DNA of 64,000 nt, taken from Agromyces sp. CF514 (GTDB lineage: Bacteria; Actinomycetota; Actinomycetes; Actinomycetales; Microbacteriaceae). The stretch's first letter is position 1, and each line of letters opens with the position of its first letter. The notes beneath the pieces are model-generated. The model did not search any database. It saw only the letters and a program-made list of their open reading frames with translations, and was not told the origin of the DNA. A program made the position numbers and the translations under genes. The stretch covers positions 2,170,001 to 2,234,000 of the forward strand of contig NZ_FOZD01000001.1 in the NCBI RefSeq assembly GCF_900113185.1, given 5' to 3'. Shown here one piece after another: positions 5,031 to 50,235 of this stretch.

Positions 5031-5918
5031 ATGGCCGTCGTCACCATCCGCCAGCTGCTCGACAGCGGCGTGCACTTCGGGCACCAGACCCGCCGTTGGA
5101 ACCCGAAGATGAAGCGGTTCATCTTCACCGAGCGTTCCGGCATCTACATCATCGACCTGCAGCAGTCGCTCGCCTTCATCGACAAGGCGTACGACTTCGT
5201 CCGCGAGACCGTCGCCCACGGCGGCACCATCCTCTTCGTCGGCACGAAGAAGCAGGCTCAGGAGTCCATCGCCGAGCAGGCGACCCGCGTCGGCCAGCCC
5301 TACGTCAACCAGCGTTGGCTCGGCGGGCTCCTCACCAACTTCCAGACGGTCTCCAAGCGCCTCGCGCGCATGAAGGAGCTCGAGGAGCTCGACTTCGAGG
5401 GCACCACGAGCGGCTTCACCAAGAAGGAGCTCCTCATCAAGAAGCGCGAGCTCGACAAGCTGCACAAGTCGCTCGGCGGCATCCGCAACCTGTCGAAGAC
5501 GCCTTCGGCGCTCTGGGTGGTCGACACCAAGAAGGAGCACCTCGCGATCGACGAGGCCAAGAAGCTCGGCATCCCCGTCATCGGCATCCTCGACACCAAC
5601 TGCGACCCCGACGAGGTCCAGTACCCGATCCCGGGCAACGACGACGCGATCCGTTCCGTCGCGCTGCTGACCCGCATCATCGCGGATGCCGCAGCCGAGG
5701 GCCTCATCGAGCGCCACCAGAAGCCCGAAGAGGCCGGCAACGTCTCGGCCGTCGAGCCGCTCGCCGAGTGGGAGCAGGAGCTCCTCCAGGCCGGTTCGGA
5801 GACCACTCCCGAGCAGGCTTCGGCCGAGACCGAGAAGGTCGCCGAGACGGAGGCCGAGGCCAAGGTCGAGGCCGCTGAGGTCGTCGCAGAGGCCGCGCCC
5901 GAGGCCGCTGCCGAGTAA
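5031..5918 (+). CDS. rpsB: 30S ribosomal protein S2
   Basis: 295 residues. The S2 fold is recognised from [20 protein letters not shown] at the start, then [20 protein letters not shown] and [22 protein letters not shown]. The start is ATG 5031, preceded by AAAGGAG. Residues beyond about 250 form a long Ala/Glu-rich acidic tail (many AE repeats), which is typical of actinobacterial S2 but absent from E. coli S2. It is co-transcribed with tsf, 39 bp downstream. Confidence 0.97.
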
Positions 5919-11743: not shown

Positions 11744-12808
11744 TCAGAGCTCGTTCTGGCGCGGGATCACGACCTGCTTGATGATGAGCAGGAACGACGC
11801 GGCGACGGGGATCGCCACGAGGGCGCCGAGCAGGCCGAGCAGGGTTCCGCCGGCCAGCGCCGCGATCACTACGAGCGCGCCGGGCACCCGCACCGCGCGG
11901 TTCATGATGCGGGGGCTGAGCACGTATGCCTCCACCTGCATGTAGACCAGGTAGTAGATCGCCGCGACGAGCGCGGTCAGCGGCGAACCCAGGCCCGGAA
12001 TGAGGCAGACGAGCACGATCACGATGGAGGCCGTCAACGTGCCCACCAGGGGTACGAGTGAGAAGACGAACGCCAGGAACGCGAGCACGGCGGGGAACGG
12101 CGCCTGGATGATCGAGAGGAAGATGAAGCTCAGTACGCCGTTGCATGCGGCGAGCCCCGCTTGCCCGAGCACGTAGCGGCCCACCGACTGCGTGATCTGC
12201 TCGGTGAGGTCGGCGAAGCGGGCCCGACGCGATGCGGGTACGAGCTGGTACGCCGTGCGCTTCATCGCGCTCAGCGAAGCCGAGAAGTACAGGGTCAGGA
12301 TGAAGACGATCACGACGGCGAAGATGCCGGCGCCGAGCGCGAACGCGACCTGGAGCACGCCGCCCGCCAGCTCGCTCAACTTCTCGGGATTCGTGAAGAA
12401 GTCGGTGATGGCCTCGGTGACCTGGCGGGTGATGTCGACGATCGGCACCTGGGGGAACTGCTTGGAGAGCTCTTCGACCCAATCGGTCGACTGCACGCGC
12501 GTCGCGATCGCCGGGATCTCCTCGACGAGCTGGCCGACCTGATCTGCGACGATCGGCACGACCGCCAGCACGAGGGCGGCGACCAGGAGCCCGACGCCCG
12601 TCATGACGATGAGGATCGACGCCCAACGCGGAAGCCCCCGGCGCTCGAGCCAGCTGATGGCGGGCTCGAGGCCGAGGGCCAGGAAGAGTGCGGCGCCGAC
12701 GTAGGTCAGCACGGTCGACAGGCTCGCGATCGCCGAGAGGATCAGGATGCCGACGCCGACGCCGAGCGTGCCGACGAGGCCGATTCGGAACGCGTTCTGG
12801 ATCTTCAT
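11744..12808 (-). CDS. AI-2E family transporter (UPF0118 membrane protein)
   Basis: 354 residues with about eight transmembrane segments: a pair at the N-terminus (GLVGTLGVGVGILILSAIAS), then a large amphipathic region (residues about 80-150), then the C-terminal bundle with PFPAVLAFLAFVFSLVPLVGT and the conserved P-R-x-M-N segment (SPRIMNRAVRVPGALVVIAA). The family is named for autoinducer-2 export but many members are Na+/H+ antiporters or of unknown substrate. It lies 18 bp downstream of the coiled-coil DivIVA gene in the same direction, so the two probably form one transcript. Confidence 0.88.
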   Translation of the reverse strand: MKIQNAFRIGLVGTLGVGVGILILSAIASLSTVLTYVGAALFLALGLEPAISWLERRGLPRWASILIVMTGVGLLVAALVLAVVPIVADQVGQLVEEIPAIATRVQSTDWVEELSKQFPQVPIVDITRQVTEAITDFFTNPEKLSELAGGVLQVAFALGAGIFAVVIVFILTLYFSASLSAMKRTAYQLVPASRRARFADLTEQITQSVGRYVLGQAGLAACNGVLSFIFLSIIQAPFPAVLAFLAFVFSLVPLVGTLTASIVIVLVCLIPGLGSPLTALVAAIYYLVYMQVEAYVLSPRIMNRAVRVPGALVVIAALAGGTLLGLLGALVAIPVAASFLLIIKQVVIPRQNEL

Positions 12809-41999: not shown

Positions 42000-42087
42000 C
42001 ACGGGAGTCCGGTGAGCCGGGCTGAGAGGAAGGTTCTCAACCTTCGACCGTCGAACCTGATCTGGATCATGCCAGCGCAGGGAGGCA
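42000..42087 (+). promoter_or_regulatory. TPP riboswitch (THI element)
   Basis: The conserved aptamer landmarks are present in order: GGGAG near 42003, GGGCTGAGAGG (the CUGAGA core), GAACCTGATCTGGATCATG (the ACCUGAU...GGAU core) and GCCAGCGCAGGGA. It is immediately followed by the ykoE-ykoD-ykoC transporter genes, which fits thiamine-pyrophosphate repression of thiamine uptake. Confidence 0.95.
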
Positions 42088-42111
42088 TCCACATCTCAAC
42101 ATCCCGTGCCG

Positions 42112-48598: not shown

Positions 48599-48820
48599 AT
48601 GACCAAGTTCCCCAGCGTCGAGGAAATCACCTCAGGCATCCATCACAGAGTGGAAGCAGAGCTCGCCGGCCGCGGTATCGAATGGTTGGCATCTGAAGTC
48701 GGGGTTGACCCGCACACCATTCTCCGGTCGTTCCATGAAGGCCCTTCGTACGGGCTCGTTTGGGACATGGCCGAAGCTCTCAACGTGTCAGTGGCATACC
48801 TCATGACGGGTGTCCGCTGA
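48599..48820 (+). CDS. Small HTH regulator (Cro-like)
   Basis: 73 residues. GIEWLASEVGVDPHTILRSFHEGPSYGLVWDMAEALNVSVAYLMTG is a compact helix-turn-helix of the XRE/Cro type. It is the first gene of the long rightward operon and is divergent from the HTH gene at 48445, so the two may form a Cro/CI-like pair. The ATG at 48599 is chosen because the promoter places the transcript start there; its stop overlaps the next ATG (TGATG). Confidence 0.7.
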   Translation: MTKFPSVEEITSGIHHRVEAELAGRGIEWLASEVGVDPHTILRSFHEGPSYGLVWDMAEALNVSVAYLMTGVR

Positions 48821-49035
48821 TGGACATTCGTGAAGAGCCGTTGACCGTTGACGAGATGGCTTCGTATCTGAAGAAGTCTGCGTACACGGTTCGTGAGCAC
48901 GCAAAGTCTGGTGCTATCCCAGCTCACAAGGTGGGTGGGACGTGGCGGTTCTTCCTGTCCGAGTTCCACGCACAGCGCACGGCCGAGGTTGTTGACCCGT
49001 TCGCTGCACCTCGTTCGCGGCGGAGGAAGTCCTGA
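48820..49035 (+). CDS. Excisionase-like MerR/Xis winged-helix protein
   Basis: 71 residues. LTVDEMASYLKKSAYTVREHAKSGAIPAHKVGGTWRFFLSEFHAQR matches the HTH_17/excisionase pattern (x-T-V-x-E-x-A-x-x-L...G-x-I-P-x-x-K-V-G-x-x-W-R-F). In phages such proteins direct integrase toward excision. The last residues (PRSRRRKS) are basic. Coupled to both neighbours by TGATG overlaps. Confidence 0.78.
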   Translation: MDIREEPLTVDEMASYLKKSAYTVREHAKSGAIPAHKVGGTWRFFLSEFHAQRTAEVVDPFAAPRSRRRKS

Positions 49036-49265
49036 TGGATTTCTCACTCTCACGCCACGCCGTGCAGCGCGCACTCGAAATGGGGCTCGAGGCGGAGTTC
49101 ATCCGCCGCCTGATCCTCAAGCCCGCGACCAAGCGGGAGAACCTCAGCCCGACGTACACGGACGGCTGCATGGTGCACACCCTCAACGGTGTCGCCGCGG
49201 TAGTGAATGCGACGGGCCATGTCGTCACGTTTTTGAAGACCGACCAAGGCGTCTGGTCGCGATAG
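49035..49265 (+). CDS. Small protein resembling DUF4258
   Basis: 76 residues. FSLSRHAVQRALEMGLEAEFIRRLILKP at the start, then YTDGCMVHTLNGVAAVVN and GHVVTFLKT, fit the DUF4258 beta-alpha pattern found in phages and toxin-antitoxin loci (RelE/colicin-D-like nucleases). Activity is unknown. It ends the first group of coupled early genes; beyond it lies the ORF-free structured region. Confidence 0.6.
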   Translation: MDFSLSRHAVQRALEMGLEAEFIRRLILKPATKRENLSPTYTDGCMVHTLNGVAAVVNATGHVVTFLKTDQGVWSR

Positions 49266-49364
49266 CCCTTCTCGCCGTCGAACGCGTTTAGGGCACCAAC
49301 ACAACTACACAGCAGCTAAGTCGAACCTGTGACCACTGCGCACCGTCGTGATGATGGCGTGTTC

Positions 49365-49830
49365 AGAGCAGGGTAGGCGGAAACCCAAAGCCGGCGCTTA
49401 GGCGGACACGGCATGGGATGTGATCCCCACGGTGGGGAGATCTTCGGTGATACGTGACTTGGCGGTCGCGGCTGACTTTACCGAACGAAGTAACGCCGGG
49501 TCTATAGGGGCTGACCCTTACCCGGCTGGTTGAGAGCTACGGGAGTCATGTTCGCTCATTCCTTCGGGAGACGTGATTGCTACACGAACCGGTAAGCGCA
49601 TAGGGCTGCGCGGCGCGGTTTAGGAACGGCTCAACCTTTATCGACTTGGTGGTCGATGGTGGCGCGATTGGCAACCTCCACGGTTCGAGGCCGTGGCGCG
49701 TACTGCGGAGGCGAGGTGGCACACGCGCCTCGGGACTGCTGCCCAAGTGCTCGCGGGATCGTATGCCCGCCTATGAGCCAAGCGTGGCAAGCGCCGAGGA
49801 CATTCCCGGGTTCGAATCCCGGCTGCTCTT
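49365..49830 (+). ncRNA. Large structured RNA candidate with tRNA-like T arm (tmRNA-like topology)
   Basis: No coding frame covers this stretch. A 7-bp closing helix joins AGAGCAG (49365-49371) to CTGCTCT (49823-49829). A perfect T arm (CCGGG-TTCGAAT-CCCGG) occupies 49806-49822. An inner helix pairs 49392-49399 (CGGCGCTT) with 49789-49796 and stacks on 49400-49405 with 49767-49772, with a small hairpin 49777-49788 between. Internal hairpins include 49424-49438, 49495-49526 (two-tier), a UUCG loop at 49561-49568, 49596-49611, 49640-49657, 49678-49696 and 49708-49731. This is the layout of tmRNA (acceptor, P2, T arm), though the G3-U70 alanine signal and a clear ALAA tag are missing and 466 nt is long. 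GOLLD/ROOL-type phage RNA is an alternative. The flanks 49266-49364 and 49831-49845 hold no gene. Confidence 0.5.
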
Positions 49831-49845
49831 GAGAAAGGAACGGTC

Positions 49846-50235
49846 ATGATCACGGTTCGTGAGTACAACGACAGCGGCGGCAACCCGCTCTACCCGGCCA
49901 TGTACTACACCATCCCGGGGACCGACGACTTCGAGCTCGTCACCCACTTCAACGACAGTGGCGGTTACGACTGGACGGATTGGGTCGCATGGTACTCGCC
50001 GACACGCCGGATGTACTTCGTCGCCAGCGGGTCCGGGTGCTCCTGCAACAGCCTGACCGACGACTATTACACCCTCGGCGATTTCGTCTCGTTTCACTCG
50101 AAGGAAACGTTGAAGGCCGACCTGGTTTCTTTCATCAACGACCGGTATGAGTACACCGACCTTCGCAATCGTCCGCGTCTTGACGACAATCTCGCGGCAA
50201 TCAACTCGTTCAAGTCGAATGCGGTGTCGTCGTGA
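49846..50235 (+). CDS. Phage hypothetical protein
   Basis: 129 residues, not recognised. It is rich in aromatic residues (NPLYPAMYYTIPGTDDFELV, GYDWTDWVAWYSPTRRMYFV) followed by a GSGCSCNS turn and a helical end, suggesting a small beta-rich domain. AAAGGA 8 nt before the ATG is a good ribosome site, so translation restarts here after the structured RNA. It overlaps the next gene by one base (TGATG). Confidence 0.65.
   Translation: MITVREYNDSGGNPLYPAMYYTIPGTDDFELVTHFNDSGGYDWTDWVAWYSPTRRMYFVASGSGCSCNSLTDDYYTLGDFVSFHSKETLKADLVSFINDRYEYTDLRNRPRLDDNLAAINSFKSNAVSS

Follow-up and report, generated by a model that had tools for sequence, protein, structure and literature searches.

A prophage of Agromyces sp. 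CF514 carries, in its early operon, a structured RNA of a previously undescribed family that has no Rfam entry and is neither tmRNA, GOLLD, nor ROOL. The block that holds it is built of three modules, namely an rrn-type boxC-like site, a core of ~110 nt, and a tRNA-like minihelix. The family comprises 17 loci with 16 distinct cores, all matched by a covariance model; selection acts on the secondary structure of the core, and the boxC-like motif and T-arm minihelix accompany it far above chance.

Distribution and genomic setting

In the window (the whole 64-kb stretch of Agromyces DNA that was analysed), a gene end at 49265 and an ATG at 49846 bound ~580 nt of untranslated sequence. Every reading frame is interrupted by stops and no conserved open frame crosses the block, in agreement with the first-pass annotation, which had called it free of ORFs. 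As a whole the block is not unusually stable (folding-energy z = -0.71), so energy by itself would not reveal a structured RNA. Its features and flanking genes are as follows.

48820..49035, + strand: upstream gene, excisionase-like HTH (PF12728 and PHROG excisionase)
49300..49313, + strand: rrn-type boxC-like motif CACAACTACACAGC, sole + strand match to AACT[ACG][AC]A[CT]AG in the window
49528..49636, + strand: core domain, a junction RNA closed by P1 (17 loci)
49528..49534 with 49630-49636, + strand: P1, GGTTGAG with CTCAACC (7/7 pairs with two-sided changes)
49544..49578, + strand: P2 of the core, 49544-49551 with 49571-49578 (8 bp; 8/8 pairs with two-sided changes)
49555-49559, + strand: conserved CUCAU within the P2 element
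49559-49562 with 49567-49570, + strand: apical P2b, hairpin closed by a UUCG loop
49587..49620, + strand: P3, AACCG 49587-49591 with CGGTT 49616-49620 (RNAalifold covariation and pair counts; register in the window assigned by hand)
49596-49600 with 49607-49611, + strand: apical P3b, GCGCA with TGCGC, loop UAGGGC
49640..49657, + strand: window-specific hairpin ATCGAC-TTGGTG-GTCGAT between core and minihelix, seen directly
49662..49702, + strand: tRNA-like minihelix, with acceptor GCGCG/CGCGT, 11-nt linker, T arm CCACGG-TTCGAGG-CCGTGG, and 3' A
49846..50235, + strand: downstream gene, DUF7574 (PF24459)

Comparison of the window by blastn with phages and the genomes of relatives gave short fragments only, and scans of viral contigs with the flanking proteins gave the same prophage only. 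Microbacterium phage Footloose was reached via distant similarity of recombination genes (synteny); its early region has a 744-nt gene-free gap at the corresponding position, preceded by two HTH genes and a small gene, and this gap has GCTACGGG, GCTACACG, GCGCATAG, and TTAGGAACGG in common with the window. A third member (L015) came from a pattern scan, a degenerate pattern yielded ten more viral contigs, all of which score with the covariance model, and the model in turn found two prophages in Microbacteriaceae, one identical in sequence to a Mycetocola tolaasinivorans contig, which points to this family as the host group. Two further patterns confined to the core added L034 and L035. Order- and class-wide scans with the model (796 and less after overlap) returned nothing convincing; the one additional match (L033, 33 bits), in a coding region and with no tRNA-like piece, was taken as chance.

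All 17 loci are in phages, prophages, or viral contigs, and the known hosts are Microbacteriaceae; several loci are closely related, such that probabilities assuming independence are too small. In the window, the upstream gene pair includes the excisionase-like HTH gene, and the DUF7574 gene is followed by YqaJ exonuclease and DNA methylase genes. At other loci, Cro-like or Xis-like genes flank the RNA on one side and genes for exonuclease VIII, Erf, or Ant on the other. Across the family, its site is in the early region, after the regulators; i.e., the setting is the early lytic (cro/xis) operon of temperate Microbacteriaceae phages.

Anatomy of the three modules

In the core, the P1 stem encloses two branched hairpins, with UACGGG, CUCAU, GCUACACG, UAGNG, and AGGA as near-invariant single strands. 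Over the 17 loci (16 rows), 97.6% of cells are paired, versus 68.3% in shuffles and 30-44% with partners slid, and 113 cells carry two-sided changes versus 34 in the control; the alignment used was fitted to the model structure and is somewhat biased towards it. Among the 16 distinct rows, 20 of the 24 core pairs have changed on both sides. For the first three sequences, aligned with MAFFT, every cell is paired and 15/24 pairs show two-sided changes, the structure having been derived from these same sequences. The first-pass annotation had proposed a structured RNA across the region; the structured noncoding RNA stands, whereas the conserved parts prove to be the core (49528-49636) and the internal T arm in 49662-49702, which that annotation had left out of its model.

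The motif upstream of the core, written AACTNNANA (short form AACTACACAG), resembles the host rrn leader/spacer boxA-boxC (NusA-type) site, for which comparison sequences are the 16S-23S spacer (GAGAACTACATAGTG; also TTGAGAACTACATAGTGG), the 16S leader GAGAACTCAACAGCG, and the rrn leader CTTGAGAACTCAACAGCGTG. In 13/16 loci, a match to AACT[ACG][AC]A[CT]A precedes the core within 260 nt; among control windows, 7/1571 have one. One version (L029, TTTGAGAACTCCACAGCGTG) is nearly equal to the host rrn leader CTTGAGAACTCAACAGCGTG, while L020 has TTGAAAACTCCACAGCGTG and L034 has TTCTTAAGTAACTACATAGAGCG; the exact motif is absent from Footloose and from L019, the latter having AATTCCACAGCGTG. Both loci found by core-only patterns also possess an upstream boxC-like stretch (a variant in L035) and a downstream T arm. 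The window itself matches the host-rrn 17-mer at 10/17 positions, no better than many control windows; for the window, the argument hence draws on the family and the shorter motif. By this shared sequence motif, the element is a predicted site of the rrn boxC type. In mycobacteria, the boxes of the rrn leader and spacer serve in antitermination, and a boxC-like RNA is bound by NusA of M. tuberculosis (PMC5676007, PMC6614801). The likeness to actinobacterial rrn operons extends to the layout, with a near-identical short motif 5' of an untranslated structured RNA and a tRNA-like piece behind; however, the phage element lies in an early operon, its RNA is not rRNA, and many loci, window included, have a weak boxA half.

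Hairpins between motif and core seem to be exchanged among relatives as modules. Upstream of the core in L022, L028, L023, and L015, two boxC-like copies flank a stem (AACTGAATCCCGC ... GCGGGCTAACTCAAYAG), which is kept but altered in L015. Separately, Microbacterium phage Camille (L038) has five copies of the rrn boxC-like CACAACTGAATA (at 11779, 25257, 28935, 29173, and 38541), each of them at or close to a gene junction and on the coding strand, with none on the other strand; these may constitute a phage antitermination signal or another transcription signal.

On the 3' side, a T arm follows the core by 19-60 nt in 13/16 rows, compared to 24 T arms on the same strand in 181 kb elsewhere. 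In the window, the spacer between P1 and minihelix is 25 nt and contains the hairpin at 49640..49657, this stretch being just a few nt long at most other loci; ARAGORN calls a tRNA-??? at 49612-49703. With minihelix boundaries set by hand, the acceptor and T stem stack to 11-12 bp in all elements, close to the 12 of tRNA, and pairs covary at nearly every position; the acceptors include GCGCT/AGCGC, GGGCT/AGCCC, GAGGCT/AGCCTC, and GCTCGG/CCGAGC, and an A follows the acceptor in 13/15. Most minihelices are without D and anticodon arms, those of Footloose, Count, and Camille having one extra hairpin. The resulting mascRNA-like layout of acceptor plus T arm is found in the window, L015, L021, L022, L024, L026-L028, L030, and L035, as well as in L023 with a mutated T loop. 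In L025, a complete tRNA-Leu(CAA) (5428-5511) begins about one base after P1, in the place of the minihelix; tRNA-Leu(CAA) is also present in the window (58428) and in Footloose, elsewhere in the phage. Hairpins replace the minihelix in L019 (a perfect 13-bp one) and L029 (another strong one), which, together with the mutated T loop of L023, indicates that the tRNA-like shape is not strictly needed.

Phages Count (L016, 1502-1570) and Camille (L017, 1495-1563) also contain tRNA-like genes that are unannotated and comprise an acceptor, a T arm, and one hairpin with a 12-nt loop; they closely resemble the 3' element of Footloose, lack the core, and are preceded by AACTGAATAG. In L024, L026, L028, and L023, a long repeated intergenic hairpin (TTGTGGGGTTCGGTTCGGC..GGGGG(T/G)ACCGAACCCCACAACACACAAACGAAA) lies 3' of the RNA, before gene starts.

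Proposed mechanism and alternatives

Reasoning from sequence, we give roughly even chances to a model in which rrn-type antitermination would carry transcription through the early-operon RNA, RNase P/Z would cleave at the minihelix, and the core so released would act in trans. During lytic growth, the boxC-like site would recruit the host rRNA antitermination factors (NusA and partners), as for rRNA, allowing RNA polymerase to read through the untranslated stretch. We propose this role because ~580 untranslated nt within an operon would invite Rho termination, and rrn-type sites serve such read-through. RNase P (possibly RNase Z) would then recognise the 11-12-bp acceptor/T stack and cut, thereby freeing the core with a 3' end near P1 and affording the downstream mRNA a clean 5' leader. 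The stable core would subsequently work in trans through its invariant loops.

The main rival is that the whole element serves as a cis-acting processive antiterminator, as do HK022 put or the rrn/lambda nut sites; boxC and core would bind the passing polymerase, which would then ignore early-operon terminators, with the tRNA-like piece just tidying the transcript. Its constant site after cro/xis and before a long early operon, the rrn-type motif, and the invariant loops of the core all fit such a function, and HK022 put is likewise folded and encoded near the front of a phage early operon, with possible antitermination, the two being likened by description and across different hosts. Yet a cis antiterminator has no need of a 3' tRNA-like processing element, and for rRNA, the rrn-type boxes alone are enough; neither an rrn-type motif nor a tRNA-like element is known in HK022 put. 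An acceptor/T stack of 12 bp suffices as a minimal RNase P substrate, and one sits just where cleavage would leave the core with a neat 3' end, for which reason we favour an excised, trans-acting RNA and consider the cis reading rather unlikely. The antitermination step would be common to both.

Less probable still is an RNase P-matured regulatory RNA that pairs with an early leader. The P4 CI and P1 C4 RNAs are phage RNAs of the immunity region matured with RNase P, and P4 CI or P1/P7 C4 would be the counterpart here. The immunity-region setting is shared, the minihelix is of the RNase P type, and at the Mycetocola locus the next large gene encodes the antirepressor Ant; however, no Ant adjoins the RNA at other loci, the invariant residues are scattered over junction strands instead of forming one exposed seed, and the window has no Rfam match to C4 or CI antisense RNA, antisense pairing being a feature of those RNAs. 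We judge this reading improbable.

The full tRNA-Leu in L025 and the further tRNA-like pieces in L024 and L025 could suggest a decaying phage tRNA array plus leader, devoid of any RNA function of its own. Such decay is very improbable, as the strongest covariation lies in the non-tRNA core, including compensatory changes in P1 and P2, and the core is kept where the tRNA-like piece has been lost (L019, L029).

Outer helices and known RNA families

The window holds a second set of long-range helices, whose strands were all found where the first-pass annotation had placed them.

49365..49371, + strand: 5' strand of the outer acceptor, AGAGCAG, seen directly, pairing with CTGCTCT 49823-49829 (shuffle test; without phylogenetic support)
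49392..49405, + strand: 5' strand of the long-range P2, seen directly, pairing as CGGCGCTT 49392-49399 with AAGCGCCG 49789-49796 and AGGCGG 49400-49405 with CCGCCT 49767-49772 (shuffle test; without phylogenetic support)
49806..49829, + strand: second T arm (49806-49822, CCGGG-TTCGAAT-CCCGG) and 3' acceptor strand, seen directly; the T arm of the first-pass annotation

Dinucleotide shuffles that keep the T arm in place yield a perfect 7-bp acceptor in 2.2% of cases, and the acceptor plus adjacent 8-bp helix in 0.06% (chance about 0.0006), in a test chosen after the fact, once the helices were known. In this prophage, the tmRNA-like closure by the outer helices may be genuine. ARAGORN reports no tag at the block. 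The acceptor/P2/T-arm topology was not found in relatives and is seen in the window only, the homologues having a local acceptor; a second downstream tRNA-like piece is also present in L024 and L025. A divergent phage tmRNA built from these helices, as had been suggested, is the remotest of the readings: however improbable by chance the helices are, neither Rfam covariance models nor ARAGORN detect tmRNA at the block, the host tmRNA lies elsewhere (C1:2038443-2038812, recovered at 159 bits as a positive control), no homologue has an acceptor closing the whole RNA, and the G3-U70 pair is indeed missing, AGAGCAG/CTGCTCT giving A3-U70.

At gathering and permissive thresholds alike, Rfam gave only sub-threshold T-arm resemblance, in the block and L015, and no earlier description of the RNA was found in Rfam or the open-licence literature, an absence not proven thereby. 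The earlier view is upheld in that the prophage early operon holds a large noncoding RNA that is structured, has a tRNA-like T arm, and matches no known family. GOLLD and ROOL resemble this RNA in being large, structured, and noncoding, in occurring near tRNAs in phages and prophages, and in their unclear function (PMC12286853). The suggestion of a GOLLD/ROOL-like RNA is nevertheless not borne out, since their Rfam models give no match up to E = 10 in the window or in L015; moreover, the conserved core here is only 110 nt. The mascRNA/MALAT1 3' element (RF01684) likewise places an acceptor plus T-arm minihelix directly after a noncoding RNA, with weak model resemblance at 19-23 bits (19.4 for the second T arm of the window, 22.6 for L015) that lies below the Rfam gathering threshold of 42.5. 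In contrast to mascRNA, the phage element is bacterial and its RNase P cleavage is a prediction; the shared minihelix is more likely convergent than a sign of kinship. A kinship of core strands (CUACGGGAG, GCUACAC) with 16S rRNA was also considered, and the resemblance is within chance. Elsewhere in the window, an ordinary TPP riboswitch (42000-42100; 55.2 bits against a threshold of 54.3) precedes ABC transporter genes.

Ultimately, these loci may represent a new class of phage RNA, a proposal we advance tentatively and at somewhat under even confidence, in which a host rRNA transcription signal and tRNA-processing enzymes would be borrowed to produce, in rRNA style, a stable excised early noncoding RNA whose invariant junction strands would bind, in trans, a target from either host or phage. 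Judging by the family, rrn-type antitermination sites may be in use among actinobacterial phages, and the five junction motifs of Camille point the same way. Its arrangement of a noncoding RNA followed by a tRNA-like putative processing signal is a bacterial parallel to MALAT1-mascRNA. As a strongly covarying RNA family in well-collected, easily grown phages, such as Footloose on Microbacterium paraoxydans, its function is directly testable.
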